Part shown: in pieces, positions 3,794 to 50,931 of the stretch
How positions within the stretch are numbered: the stretch's first letter is position 1
Layout of the letters: each line of letters starts with the position of its first letter
Origin: Hyphomicrobium sp. CS1BSMeth3
Lineage (GTDB): Bacteria; Pseudomonadota; Alphaproteobacteria; Rhizobiales; Hyphomicrobiaceae
Direction of reading: 5' to 3'
Assembly: GCF_900117415.1 (NCBI RefSeq)
Contig: NZ_FPEI01000004.1
Coordinates: 620,001-684,000 of the forward strand
Length of the DNA: 64,000 nt
Position numbers and translations under genes: made by a program
The notes under the pieces: generated by a model
The model's input: the letters and a program-made list of their open reading frames with translations, nothing else
Databases searched by the model: none
What the model was told of the DNA's origin: nothing

Positions 3794-4258
3794 CTACCTG
3801 CGCGGCACCTCGGGGCAGCCGGCGCCGGGCGGTCGGCCCATGATCTGGACGGAATAGAACGTCGGCGTCTCGCCAGGAGCGCGGGCCACGCCGACGCCGA
3901 TCTGCGTCACTTTCGGCGAGGCCATGTTCGCGCGATGGCCGGGAGAATTCTTCCACCCTGTCACGACCGTCCCCGCGAGCGCGCTCGTCGAGTAGCCCTT
4001 CTGGTCCCGGCGCCAGGAGAGATTCTCGGCAAGCCAGCAGAAGCGATAGCCCTGTGCCCTCACGCGCGCATCCATACTGCGCCCGTCCGCCGTGTGGGAG
4101 AGGGCGCCGGTTTTGGCGAGGTAAGCCGCATAGGCGCGCGCAGCCGCTGCAAGCTGTTTGTTCGAGGACAGCGTCCCGAGCTTCTGCTCGCGGCGGAAGG
4201 CGTTCGTCATCTGGATGATGGCGACCTCGGTCTTGGGAAGATCGGGCAGAGTGGTCAT
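3794..4258 (-). CDS. CAP (SCP/PR-1) domain protein
   Basis: This is a 154-residue CAP-superfamily domain, the fold of cysteine-rich secretory proteins and bacterial secreted proteins such as YkwD. The signature residues are present: HT (55-56), EN (78-79), and W102 followed by SPGHRANM (105-112). Domain length is complete. No signal peptide is visible at the chosen ATG and no good alternative start exists in the 58-nt gap behind the carbonic anhydrase gene, so its location is uncertain; most bacterial relatives are exported. Its molecular function is not known for most bacterial members. Confidence 0.85.
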   Translation of the reverse strand: MTTLPDLPKTEVAIIQMTNAFRREQKLGTLSSNKQLAAAARAYAAYLAKTGALSHTADGRSMDARVRAQGYRFCWLAENLSWRRDQKGYSTSALAGTVVTGWKNSPGHRANMASPKVTQIGVGVARAPGETPTFYSVQIMGRPPGAGCPEVPRR

Positions 4259-7370: not shown

Positions 7371-9083
7371 TCACCCCTTCACGTCGAGCTGCGAGACCAT
7401 CACGCGCACGACAGACTTCTTGCCCCACACTTGATCGACCGACGCGCGCACGGCGCGACGCACGGCCTCGCGCACCATCTCCACATCGCTGCGGCGCTTG
7501 GGCGGGATGCTCTCGATCGTGCCTTCGACGACATCGAGCACCATGTCCTCCATGGCGCCGCCGCCCGGGCGCTCGGAGGGAATGCCCTCCATGACCACCT
7601 CGGGATCGTCGAGCATCTTGCCGTTGCGCGAAAGCACGAGCGACACGACGATCACGCCGACATAAGCGAGCTTGCGCCGCTCGCGAATGCACATGTCCTC
7701 GGCGCTGATCAGCAGATTGCCGTCGCGATAAATGCGCCCGACCGGCACCTCGTCGACGATCGCCGGACGGCCCGGCGCGAGGGCGACCACCTCGCCATTG
7801 ATCGCGACAACGACCTCCTTGATGCCCGCGGCCCGCCCGAGTTTGGCGTGCTCGGCAAGGTGGCGCATCTCGCCGTGCATGGGCATGAGGATCCTGGGCG
7901 TTAGCAAGCCATAGAGTTGCTTCAGCTCATCGCGCCGCGGATGCCCCGTGACGTGCACCAGCGCCTCGTTGTCGGTCACGAGGTCGGCGCCCATACGCAC
8001 GAGCGAATTCTGGATGCGCCCGACATCCCGCTCGTTCCCGGGAATAGTGCGCGAGGAGAAGATGACGAGATCGCCCTTCGCAATCGAGATGTCAGGATGC
8101 GCGTTCTCGGCAATGCGTGCGAGCGCGGCGCGCGGCTCGCCCTGGCTCCCGGTGACCAGCGCCACGATCTCATCGCGGCGATAGTCGCTGAAGCGCTGCT
8201 GGTCGGCGTACACGAAATCCGGCGGCAGGTAGCCCGTCTCGATCGCCACCTGGATGATGCGATGGAGCGCGCGCCCCGCCACGACGAGACGCCGCCCCGC
8301 TGCACGCGCCGCATTTGCGACAGCCAGCACGCGCGCGACATTCGAGGCGAATGTCGTGACGATCACGCACTGCTCGGCCTGCTTGATGATGCGCGCGAGC
8401 GATGCTGCGACATCCTCTTCCGAGGGGGAGCGGCCGTCGCGCATAGCATTCGTCGAGTCGCAGACGAGCGCCAGCACACCCTCCTCGCCGAGCTCCTTGT
8501 AGCGCAGCTCGTCCGGCGGCAGGCCCGCGCCCGGCGACTTGTCGAGCTTCCAGTCGCCCGTGTGGTAGACGAGGCCATGCGGCGTGCGGATCGCGAGACC
8601 GTTCGGCTCGGGAATCGAGTGCGCCTGATTCACGAGCTCGATGGAGAACGGCCCCACATCGAACGTCCCGCCGAGCGGGATCTCGTGGATCGGGATCTTG
8701 AGCTTGCCGCCCGTCTGCTCGGCGAGCTTGGTCTTGAGCAGCGTTGCCGTGAAGGGCGTCGCGTAGATCGGCACCTTGATGCGCGGCCAAAGCTCGATGA
8801 CCGCGCCGAAATGGTCCTCGTGCGCGTGCGTGAGCACGAGACCGCAGAGATCCTTCGCCCGGCTCTCGATGAACTTGAGATCCGGCATGATGACATCGAC
8901 GCCGGGATCGAACTCGCCTTCGGGGAAGGTAATACCGAGGTCGATCATCAGCCACTTGCGCGCGCGCTCGGGGCCGAGGCCGTAGAGATAGCAGTTCATG
9001 CCGATCTCGCCGAGCCCGCCGAGGGCGAGGACGACCAGCTCACTATCGCCTTTGGATTCCGGTGTGCGCGTGCGTGCCATCAT
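7371..9083 (-). CDS. rnj: Ribonuclease J
   Basis: Ribonuclease J is a metallo-beta-lactamase/beta-CASP nuclease with 5'-exonuclease and endonuclease activity in RNA maturation and decay. The 570-residue product has the zinc-binding HAHEDH (86-91) and the later ligand HTGDWKLD, followed by the beta-CASP domain and a C-terminal domain, matching the alphaproteobacterial form. It is the last gene of the leftward nuo block, 6 nt after birA, a placement typical of Hyphomicrobiales. Two Met codons are adjacent at the start; either could be used. Confidence 0.95.
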   Translation of the reverse strand: MMARTRTPESKGDSELVVLALGGLGEIGMNCYLYGLGPERARKWLMIDLGITFPEGEFDPGVDVIMPDLKFIESRAKDLCGLVLTHAHEDHFGAVIELWPRIKVPIYATPFTATLLKTKLAEQTGGKLKIPIHEIPLGGTFDVGPFSIELVNQAHSIPEPNGLAIRTPHGLVYHTGDWKLDKSPGAGLPPDELRYKELGEEGVLALVCDSTNAMRDGRSPSEEDVAASLARIIKQAEQCVIVTTFASNVARVLAVANAARAAGRRLVVAGRALHRIIQVAIETGYLPPDFVYADQQRFSDYRRDEIVALVTGSQGEPRAALARIAENAHPDISIAKGDLVIFSSRTIPGNERDVGRIQNSLVRMGADLVTDNEALVHVTGHPRRDELKQLYGLLTPRILMPMHGEMRHLAEHAKLGRAAGIKEVVVAINGEVVALAPGRPAIVDEVPVGRIYRDGNLLISAEDMCIRERRKLAYVGVIVVSLVLSRNGKMLDDPEVVMEGIPSERPGGGAMEDMVLDVVEGTIESIPPKRRSDVEMVREAVRRAVRASVDQVWGKKSVVRVMVSQLDVKG

Positions 9084-19927: not shown

Positions 19928-20093
19928 CTAGTGCGATGATCGTGAAATTCGCCCACAGTGGCGACATGTCTCCCTAGCGAATTTCACGATCTGAATCGCA
20001 CTAGTAAACCCATGAATCTAGTGTCCCTTCACATTCCGAAGTTCGCTCCTCCCCCGGGCTGGACACTGGCGAACTTCGGAATGGGGACACTAG
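19928..20093. repeat. Two-hairpin palindromic element (REPIN-like), copy 1
   Basis: Hairpin A occupies 19928-20004 and hairpin B 20018-20093, with a 13-nt spacer. Both begin with CTAGTG and end with CACTAG. Hairpin A has outer arms CTAGTGCGAT / ATCGCACTAG, a TGA bulge on its 3' arm, then inner arms GATCGTGAAATTCGC / GCGAATTTCACGATC. Hairpin B has outer arms CTAGTGTCCC / GGGGACACTAG, a TTCA bulge on its 5' arm, and inner arms CATTCCGAAGTTCGC / GCGAACTTCGGAATG. Hairpin B reverse-complemented has the same design as A, so the element is two units facing each other. The second copy is at 49631-49797. The element fills most of the 329-bp gap upstream of nuoG; no gene was seen there. Confidence 0.92.
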
Positions 20094-20165: not shown

Positions 20166-21011
20166 CTACGCCGCGTCGACGATCGGGTTCGCCAGGATGC
20201 CGATCTTCTCGACCTCCACCTCGACCTTGTCGCCCGCCTTCATCCAGGCCGGGGGCTTGCGCGCATGGGCGACGCCCGAGGGCGTGCCGGTGGCAATGAG
20301 GTCGCCCGGCTCGAGGGTCATGAACTCGGAGATGATCGCGACGATCTTCGCCGTCGAGAAGATCATGTCGGACGTATTGCTGTCCTGCATGGTCTCGCCG
20401 TTCACCCGGGTGCAGATGCGCAGGCCCGAGGCGCCGGGCGGCAGCTCGTCGGCCGTGACCACCACCGGACCGAGCGGGCCAGTGCCGTCGAAGTTCTTGC
20501 CCGGCGTCCACTGCGCGCCCTTGCGCTGGAAGTCGCGCACCGAGACGTCATTGAACAGCGTATAGCCGAAGACGTGATCGAGCGCCTTGCTCTCCGGGAT
20601 ATGGCGACCACCCTTGCCGATCACGATCGTCAGCTCGCACTCATAATCGAGCTGGATGGACTCTTTCGGCCGAATGACCGGCTCGCCGGCGGCAACGAGC
20701 GAGGAGTGGAAGCGTGGGAACAGCGCCGGGTAGGTCGGCGTCGCGTGGCCACCTTCGGCAGCGTGGGCCGCATAATTCAGACCGATGCAGAGGAACTTGC
20801 CCGGCCGCGCGATCGGCAGCGCCGGCTTCACGGAGGCGAGCGGCTGCTTCGTCCCCTTGGCTGCGGCAGCCTTCACCGCCGCGAGGGCTGACGGCCCCCC
20901 CACAATCACGTCGTAGAGGTTCGCTCCTGCCGAGCCGACCTCGATGACGCTATCACCCTCGACGACGCCGAGAGCTTCTCCGGCACCCTTCTTGAACATC
21001 ATCAGCTTCAT
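20166..21011 (-). CDS. Fumarylacetoacetate hydrolase (FAH) family protein
   Basis: A 281-residue enzyme of the FAH family, whose members hydrolyse or decarboxylate 2-oxo/acylpyruvate compounds with a divalent metal. Metal-site residues are Glu124 and Glu126 in LDYECEL and Asp155 in FNDVSVRD; GTGPLGP and TGTPSGV are further family signatures. The N-terminal FAH_N-like domain is present. The exact substrate is unclear (acylpyruvase, ureidoglycolate lyase and 2-hydroxyhepta-2,4-diene-1,7-dioate isomerase relatives look alike). It follows an Old Yellow Enzyme gene by 45 nt on the same strand, which suggests a shared catabolic role. A GGGAGG ribosome site precedes the ATG. Confidence 0.9.
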   Translation of the reverse strand: MKLMMFKKGAGEALGVVEGDSVIEVGSAGANLYDVIVGGPSALAAVKAAAAKGTKQPLASVKPALPIARPGKFLCIGLNYAAHAAEGGHATPTYPALFPRFHSSLVAAGEPVIRPKESIQLDYECELTIVIGKGGRHIPESKALDHVFGYTLFNDVSVRDFQRKGAQWTPGKNFDGTGPLGPVVVTADELPPGASGLRICTRVNGETMQDSNTSDMIFSTAKIVAIISEFMTLEPGDLIATGTPSGVAHARKPPAWMKAGDKVEVEVEKIGILANPIVDAA

Positions 21012-48054: not shown

Positions 48055-49560
48055 ATGGCGGTTTCCAAATCCCAGATTCTCGAGCAGTTGAAGCGCATCA
48101 AGGGGCCCGATCTCGAGGGCAACATCGTCGACCTCGGCCTCGTCTCCGAGATCCTGCTCCGCGACGACAAGGTCTATTTCTCCATCACCGTCCCGCCGGA
48201 CAAGGCGGCCGCGCTCGAGCCGCTCCGGCAGGCCGCGGAAAAGGTCGTGAAGGACATTCCCGGCGTGCAGGGCGTGACCGCGGTGCTGACCGCAGAAGCG
48301 GCGCGCGGCGGCAATGCTGGCGCGGCCCCGCCTCGTGCGGACAGTTCGCGCGTCCAGCAGGTGCGCGCACAGCAGAGCGCTGCCCGCGAAGCCGCAGCGC
48401 GCCCGCAGCCTGCGCCTGGCGGCCGCCCCTCGGCCGGCGTGCCCGGCATCAAGCACATGATCGCCGTGGCCTCGGGCAAGGGCGGCGTCGGCAAGTCGAC
48501 AACGGCGGTCAATCTCGCGCTCGGCTTCCAGGCGATCGGGCTCAAGGCCGGCATTCTCGACGCCGACATCTACGGTCCCTCGCAGCCGCGCCTGCTCGGC
48601 CTCTCTGGGCGCCCGCAAGTCATCGAGGGCTCGAACCGCCTCAAGCCCATGGAAGGCTTCGGCCTCAAGGCCATGTCCATGGGCTTCATGGTGGACGAAG
48701 GCACGCCGATCATCTGGCGCGGGCCCATGGTCGTCTCGGCGCTCACGCAGATGCTGCGCGAGGTCGAGTGGGGTGAGCTCGACGTGCTCGTCATCGACAT
48801 GCCGCCCGGCACCGGCGACGTGCAGCTCACTATGGCGCAGCAGGTGCCGCTCTCCGGCGCCATCATCGTCTCGACGCCGCAGGATCTGGCGCTCATCGAC
48901 GCCCGCAAGGGCCTCGCCATGTTCCGCAAGACCGACATTCCCGTGCTCGGCATCATCGAGAACATGAGCTACTTCCTCTGCCCGAGCTGCGGCGAGCGCT
49001 CCGACATCTTCGGACATGGTGGCGCGGCGGAAGAGGCGCGCAAGCTCGGCATTCCCTTCCTCGGTGAAGTGCCGCTGCACATGTCGATCCGCGCGCGCTC
49101 GGACGAAGGCCGCCCGATCGTCGCCGCCGAGCCCGAGAGCCAGCATGCACAGATCTTCCGCGACCTCGCGGCCAAGGCTTGGGACGAGCTTTCCGGCGCC
49201 GCCGGCCAGCGCGTGCCGCCGCCATCCCTAAAGGTGAAGCCCGGCGCCGACGCACTCGATGTCTCATTCCAGGATGGCGGGCGCTACGAGCTTTCAGCCG
49301 AGATGCTGCGCGTCATGAGCCCGTCCGCCGAGGTGCAGGGCCATTCGCCGGAGCAACGCGTCACGGTCGGCAAAAAGCGCAACGTGAAGATCCGCGACCT
49401 CGTGCCCGTCGGCAACTATGCGGTGAAGATCGTGTTCGACGACGGCCACGACACCGGCCTCTACACGTGGTCCTACCTCGCGCTGCTCGGGCGCGAGAAA
49501 GATAAACGTTGGGCCCAGTATCTTAAGGAACTGGAAGCCAAGGGCCTCAGTCGAGGTTAG
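48055..49560 (+). CDS. mrp: Mrp/ApbC-type Fe-S carrier ATPase with C-terminal DUF971 (HCF101-like)
   Basis: A 501-residue fusion. Residues 6-80 are a MIP18/DUF59 (FSCA) domain; about 80-130 is an Ala/Pro/Gln-rich linker; 133-380 is the Mrp/NBP35 P-loop ATPase with deviant Walker A GKGGVGKST (141-149), DADIYGPSQP (169-178), VIDMPPGTGD (246-255) and the cluster-binding CPSC (309-312); 392-490 is a DUF971 domain (GBBH-like N-terminal). This three-domain order is that of the chloroplast [4Fe-4S] carrier HCF101. It should load [4Fe-4S] clusters into client proteins, possibly including complex I; this is inference. The ATG at 48055 follows GAGAGGAAC; the frame from 47986 adds an unsupported Arg-rich leader. 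Confidence 0.95.
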   Translation: MAVSKSQILEQLKRIKGPDLEGNIVDLGLVSEILLRDDKVYFSITVPPDKAAALEPLRQAAEKVVKDIPGVQGVTAVLTAEAARGGNAGAAPPRADSSRVQQVRAQQSAAREAAARPQPAPGGRPSAGVPGIKHMIAVASGKGGVGKSTTAVNLALGFQAIGLKAGILDADIYGPSQPRLLGLSGRPQVIEGSNRLKPMEGFGLKAMSMGFMVDEGTPIIWRGPMVVSALTQMLREVEWGELDVLVIDMPPGTGDVQLTMAQQVPLSGAIIVSTPQDLALIDARKGLAMFRKTDIPVLGIIENMSYFLCPSCGERSDIFGHGGAAEEARKLGIPFLGEVPLHMSIRARSDEGRPIVAAEPESQHAQIFRDLAAKAWDELSGAAGQRVPPPSLKVKPGADALDVSFQDGGRYELSAEMLRVMSPSAEVQGHSPEQRVTVGKKRNVKIRDLVPVGNYAVKIVFDDGHDTGLYTWSYLALLGREKDKRWAQYLKELEAKGLSRG

Positions 49561-49630: not shown

Positions 49631-49797
49631 CTAGTGTGGTGATTCCGAAGTCCGCCACCCCTTCGCGGCAGGTGTCGGAAGCGGACTTCGAAATCTGAAC
49701 CACACTAGAATCATAGACTTGCTAGTGTCCTTTCGATCGTGAAGTTCGCTCGAAAGCCCGCCGCAAATGGTGGCAAACTTCGCGATCGGGACACTAG
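49631..49797. repeat. Two-hairpin palindromic element (REPIN-like), copy 2
   Basis: Hairpin A is 49631-49708 and hairpin B 49722-49797, again with a 13-nt spacer. Hairpin A has outer arms CTAGTGTGGT / ACCACACTAG, where copy 1 has CTAGTGCGAT / ATCGCACTAG: the changed bases are compensated on the other arm. The TGA bulge on the 3' arm of A and a TTT bulge on the 5' arm of B are in the same positions as in copy 1. It lies between the mrp stop and the DUF2750 gene in the same orientation as copy 1. Confidence 0.92.
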
Positions 49798-50686: not shown

Positions 50687-50810
50687 CCCTTCTCCCCGTC
50701 CTTCACGGGGAGAAGGTTAGGATGAGGGGCAGGAGCTTGTGCGACGTCGGAGTTTGCCGCTGCCCCTCACCCCGACCCTCTCCCCATTGAAGCCAATGGG
50801 GAGAGGGGGG
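50687..50810. repeat. Paired-hairpin palindromic repeat, family 2, copy 3
   Basis: The left hairpin is CCTTCTCCCC / GGGGAGAAGG followed by TTAGGATGAGGGGC; the right is GCCCCTCACCCCGACCC and CTCTCCCC / GGGGAGAG. The AAGG-type arm is on the left and the AGGG-type arm on the right, the reverse of copies 1 and 2, while the central spacer aligns in the same direction as theirs. The whole 392-bp gap 50540-50931 between the DUF2750 gene and pccB otherwise shows no gene. Confidence 0.8.
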
Positions 50811-50931
50811 AAAGTGGATGCGCAAGTGCCCCGCCGCCAAAACCATCCCAACCTTCCGTTTTGCCCCCTTCCGCCCCCCGTGCTAGACACGCCTGGAACT
50901 CACGTTGCAGTGCACTAGGGGCAAGAAATCC

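Follow-up and report, generated by a model that had tools for sequence, protein, structure and literature searches.

Identification and structure of the two copies

Two stretches of about 166 bp in the genome of Hyphomicrobium sp. CS1BSMeth3 each consist of two facing hairpins, which raises the question whether they represent a mobile element and, if so, how such an element is moved. Both lie in a stretch of 64,000 nucleotides of contig NZ_FPEI01000004.1 (positions 620,001 to 684,000), which is referred to as the window. The preliminary description had proposed an inverted pair of hairpins of REPIN-like design, selection for folding and a mobilised element different from known REP units, and all three proposals are supported here. 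The features of the two copies are as follows (positions are those of the window).

19928 to 20004, plus strand: copy 1, hairpin A (77 nt), with foot CTAG, outer stem, inner stem, loop and a TGA bulge on the 3' arm
20005 to 20017, plus strand: copy 1, 13-nt spacer TAAACCCATGAAT (superfamily motif CAANNNTATGATT, with changes)
20018 to 20093, plus strand: copy 1, hairpin B (76 nt), with foot CTAG and a bulge on the 5' arm
49631 to 49708, minus strand: copy 2, hairpin (78 nt) with GTGTGGT outer stem and TTCCGAAGTCCGC inner stem, the second hairpin when the element is oriented by its spacer
49709 to 49721, minus strand: copy 2, spacer, whose reverse complement is CAAGTCTATGATT, the family consensus
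49722 to 49797, minus strand: copy 2, hairpin (76 nt) with GTGTCC outer stem and ATCGTGAAGTTCGC inner stem, the first hairpin when oriented by the spacer

CTAG stands at all eight hairpin ends. A TGA bulge is located on the inner arm of the first hairpin and a 3-4-nt bulge on the inner arm of the second. Both copies fold as two separate hairpins and far better than dinucleotide shuffles (z -11.0 and -7.8; 0 of 200 shuffles as good). Copy 1 lies between a minus-strand ORF, probably fumarylacetoacetate-hydrolase-like (20166-21011), and the start of a possibly NuoG-like ORF, whereas copy 2 lies 70 nt after a plus-strand ORF, probably Mrp-like ATPase, ending at 49560. The compensated differences between the outer stems of the copies, noted in the preliminary description, are real. 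In one point this description has to be corrected: by spacer and inner stems copy 2 lies in the opposite orientation to copy 1, while its outer stems have the order of copy 1. Hairpin modules have therefore been exchanged, and the two copies are different subtypes. A similar mixing was seen in another locus (L115, 10319-10485), which joins a family-1 A hairpin (family 1 being the family of the two window copies) to a GTGTGGT-type second hairpin. The conserved spacer, e.g., that of copy 2, contains TATGAT, which may resemble a sigma-70 -10 box, but no -35 box was seen by eye at the usual distance. In the right flank of copy 2 (50687-50818) another repeat of GGGGAGAGGG type was found, with an inverted repeat at 50707-50785; it was also seen in stretches of the relatives G002, G003 and G004.

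Copy number and mobility

A DNA search of the window's own genome (G000, 6,020,814 bases) gave 41 places at E below 1e-20. A covariance model built from 26 copies, in which 8 of 50 pairs show compensated changes, gave 93 distinct places of at least 155 nt. As only 150 of 4,091 first-look candidates were scored, this is a lower bound. Solo or truncated hairpins are few. In one locus (L363, about 8840-8970) a hairpin of this type is interrupted between its arms by another palindromic repeat (CGTCATACCGGCGAAGGCCGG...).

In G006, a genome of a sister genus, 23 copies, the place of the query itself included, are 95-100% identical over 165 bp, and all of them start and end with CTAG. Their flanks are unrelated as far as was seen, except for two copies in locus L072 (5491 and 9418) that share inverted flank sequence. 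At 23 insertion sites a relative lacks the element. Eleven of these elements were found in a first comparison (123 rows tested, some of them one element in two orientations, 45 of them G006 rows whose sister genomes were not yet included) and 12 of 14 elements in a second one, 10 of which were aligned base by base. The sites at L119 and L029 rest on unbroken matches, and L220 and L096 gave none. None of these sites was seen occupied in a relative, though some relatives matched on one side only. The flanks of the two window copies themselves were not found in the stretches of relatives examined.

The commonest clean difference between filled and empty sites is four bases: the filled site reads left flank, [CTAG..CTAG] and right flank, and the empty site reads left flank, one tetranucleotide and right flank. 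Clear cases are the elements e1 (CTTG, GTTG, GTTG), e4 (CTGG in three relatives) and L016 (CTAG); for example, GGGACA-CTTG-CCGAAG in the relative G003 stands against [CTCG..CTAG]. Many sites are diverged, with gaps from -13 to +59 in the first comparison, and say little. Two G006 sites correspond on their left side to CTAG, CTGA or TTAG at a stop codon in sister genomes, but their right flanks did not align. At the site filled by L004 in G000, the relative G004 (L164, about 16543) has AAATCGGGACACTAG, which resembles the end of an element and is perhaps a deletion remnant. Although no transposition was observed, the near-identical copies with sharp edges and the empty sites show that the element moves. 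At the clean sites one tetranucleotide is kept without further target duplication, as for IS200/IS605.

A second family and an order-wide superfamily

In locus L112 a family-1 element is split, at the CTAG of the inner foot of hairpin A, by an element of the same design with other stems (CTAAAGC..GCTTTAG). This second family has 33 places of at least 150 nt in G000 (40 of 57 candidates scored) and was found in 4 of the 5 genomes of the genus and in 0 of 13 others searched. Its spacer resembles that of family 1, and part of the inner stem is alike.

A family-1 search found 16 of 40 relatives, all in the same family (24 genomes), and 15 of 397 genomes of the order Hyphomicrobiales. An element on an Agrobacterium plasmid (NZ_CP040642) has other stems but the spacer CAAGTATATGATT. 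The pattern CACTAGCAANNNTATGATTCTAGTG with up to two mismatches occurs in 35 of 397 genomes of the order (20 of 142 genera; 13 family labels), with no hit of the reversed control in the listed genomes. Among plasmids, the Agrobacterium element was the only record, and a second query gave none. None was found in phages, while seven viral contigs carry the arm pattern and two the spacer pattern. In one viral contig (L368, about 3920-4190) three such hairpins stand in a row, joined by two copies of the spacer type.

Of 32 loci then examined (30 from the spacer search, one viral contig and the plasmid), 29 gave an element with at least 7 of 10 outer pairs in both hairpins. Two were weak (L378 and L388) and one (L381) runs off its contig. 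L389 and L394 were dropped for odd lengths, and 27 elements were aligned with the two window copies and three others, 32 rows in all. With a structure written from this alignment, 96.9% of 1,598 cells are standard pairs (75.4% in shuffles, 0 of 500 shuffles as high; 28-39% when slid), and 41 of 50 pairs have changes on both sides. The outer pairs helped to choose the ends and therefore lean towards pairing, but the 30 inner pairs did not, and they score 95.4% and 97.9%. Stems thus differ between families and yet stay paired.

Folded DNA or RNA

An RNA element at transcript 3' ends (terminator, mRNA stabiliser or regulatory RNA), spread or kept for that function, was considered, since the hairpins are very stable and 69 of 202 sites begin exactly at the TAG stop codon of a gene. 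If RNA were selected, G-U should be commoner than A-C. However, the counts of G-T and A-C mispairs are 24 and 25 across families and 19 and 20 among 52 intact G000 copies. A first count in transcript orientation gave 73 against 37 over 59 elements, but it contained a column that is U-G by consensus and damaged copies; without them it is 16 against 10 over 33 elements (p 0.33). The lack of a G-U preference points to folded DNA, although a weak RNA contribution is not excluded.

Of the 202 sites, 69 start at a stop codon, 129 are elsewhere between genes and 4 are inside genes, whereas CTAG sites without an element in four genomes split into 113, 211 and 326, respectively, as determined with a simple ORF caller in stretches chosen around elements. 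Background non-genic CTAG sites thus coincide with stops equally often (113 of 324). At 48 of 132 gene 3' ends the stop codon lies in the terminal CTAG of an element, but this is also explained by the CTAG background. So elements are kept out of genes, by selection or choice, and stop codons are simply where non-genic CTAG occurs. In addition, no Rfam match on an element was found, neither in the window at gathering score nor in 14 loci at E up to 0.1, and occupancy differs between species. A function as RNA element therefore appears very unlikely.

Feet of the hairpins and the target site

The tetranucleotide feet were compared in 64 G000 copies. A-outer and A-inner are both changed in 16 copies, complementary in 13, A-inner alone in 9 and A-outer alone in 5. 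CTCG-outer goes with CGAG-inner (10/2/6/46, Fisher p 2.8e-6). B-outer alone is changed in 8, B-inner alone in 2 and both in 4, 2 of them complementary. Feet are thus not always complementary, and in G006, 7 of 23 copies have a changed B-inner with B-outer still CTAG. We read this as an A foot that is carried by the element and covaries with A-inner, while B-outer is usually the tetranucleotide of the target itself. The empty sites favour this reading at e4, L016 and L165, where B-outer fits better than A-outer, and oppose it at L112:2113, where the site of the relatives resembles A-outer more than B-outer; e1, L097 and L024 do not decide.

The main rival is a MITE of a DDE transposase that duplicates a 4-bp CTAG-like target, the hairpins being secondary to terminal inverted repeats. 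Both outer feet are equal in 35 of 64 G000 and 23 of 23 G006 copies, as a plain 4-bp duplication would give, and TG..CA ends lie inside the CTAG. IS481 of Bordetella pertussis, which appears to use a CTAG target, may be a precedent. The two ends of an element agree at 13 to 21 of 26 positions in the 32 rows, and more than ends of different elements do (12.1 against 10.2 of 20 variable positions; 0 of 20,000 permutations as high, relatedness not modelled), as one enzyme reading both would also require. The ends agree at position 8 in only 5 and at position 9 in 0 of 32 rows, as if the two hairpins were kept distinct there. On the other hand, a target duplication does not cause the covariation of A-outer and A-inner, and the outer feet differ in e4, L016 and other copies whose empty site is known. 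Selection keeps the whole stem paired while its sequence is free. Moreover, in 1.75 Mb examined, rather than whole genomes, nine orphan-arm places all fall on known or truncated copies. This explanation is considered possible but unlikely. Compared with an IS481-type MITE, which would share the CTAG target, the TG..CA ends and the likeness of the ends, the element has covarying feet, unequal outer feet in 29 of 64 G000 copies and a terminal sequence that changes from family to family.

Search for the mobilising enzyme

The preliminary description had suggested looking for a RAYT-type or other transposase gene whose flanks carry the hairpin. The Y1 domain (PF01797) is absent from G000 (99.76% complete) and from 10 of 11 other carriers tested (the further carriers G013, G017, G022 and G023 not included). 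G006, 100% complete with near-identical copies, has none. The single match, in the carrier G007, has no family-1 element in its 3.4-kb locus, and the same search is positive in 5 of 14 control genomes. The RAYT link is thus not supported. A RAYT/IS200-type Y1 enzyme that has been lost, is too divergent for PF01797 or is missing from the assemblies remains a doubtful alternative, in favour of which it can be said that design, bulges, tetranucleotide feet and dimer arrangement work like REPINs and that REPtrons can be lost by deletion (PMC3733652).

A linked mobiliser was searched for by all-against-all comparison of 723 proteins within 700 bp of elements. The recurring groups are, where identified, SDR, ABC, 2-hydroxyacid dehydrogenase, FAD-linked oxidase and kinase proteins, or ORFs that run through the element. 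Pfam searches of 30 nearby proteins, three of which had no Pfam match, gave no transposase, although not all element neighbourhoods were covered. SnoaL-like repeats beside elements were regarded as unrelated. No orientation bias against local GC skew was found in family 1 (79 of 170 positive, p 0.14), so there is no sign of lagging-strand preference. In another carrier (G011, contigs C1 and C2) the listed copies are biased in orientation (18 plus and 4 minus in the family-1 search; 8 to 0 in the spacer search), but sampled skew did not explain it.

Comparison with known systems and proposed mechanism

Like REPINs, the element is an inverted pair of imperfect palindromes with a bulge and a tetranucleotide foot, present in high copy number and mostly outside genes. 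However, REPs with RAYT (TnpA-REP), including the GTAG families, are 20-40 bp with GTAG at one end (PMC3733652), whereas here the units are about 77 nt with CTAG at both ends, a fixed 13-nt spacer conserved across families, freely varying stems and no Y1 gene in 11 of 12 carriers tested. The CGTC-tagged REPs of Alphaproteobacteria are also palindromic repeats without a dedicated transposase, but have stems of 8-9 bp, loops of 4-5 nt and a CGTC tag; the main text of that study does not contain CTAG (PMC3733652). At the ends of IS200/IS605 and their derivatives the feet are tetranucleotides selected by base pairing with guide sequences (PMC8266576), by our reading with one foot element-borne and one from the target. 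Here, the foot extends the hairpin stem itself, no Y1 transposase was found in 11 of 12 carriers, and the element is two hairpins only. No description of this family was found in the literature searched, although sequences printed only in figures or supplements would be missed and most subscription papers were outside the search.

Taken together, each copy is best explained, with moderate confidence, as a non-autonomous mobile element of about 165-167 bp moved as folded single-stranded DNA by an unidentified enzyme. We infer that an enzyme acting in trans recognises the folded single strand, probably through the hairpins with their bulges and the conserved spacer. It would cut at the CTAG feet, each chosen by pairing with the complementary inner foot of its hairpin, and join the strand at a CTAG-like target, which is the logic of guide-selected single-strand transposition in IS200/IS605. 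More tentatively, the elements may belong to a transposition system not yet described, in which an order-wide superfamily of paired-hairpin elements is moved by an enzyme that is not an HUH/Y1 transposase and not linked to its elements. Such an enzyme would read the conserved 13-nt spacer and the hairpin shape, so that stems are free to diversify and hairpin modules are exchanged between families, and changing the inner foot would change the CTAG-like target.

The finding adds a mobile-element superfamily spread over at least 13 families of one bacterial order, with copies numerous enough (93 and 33 places in this genome, both lower bounds) to shape intergenic DNA. It is a natural experiment in which sequence is free to change and only the fold is kept, with pairing rules that point to DNA rather than RNA. 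If the feet are guided by pairing, as in IS200/IS605, the element would be a small insertion module whose target could be set by four bases.
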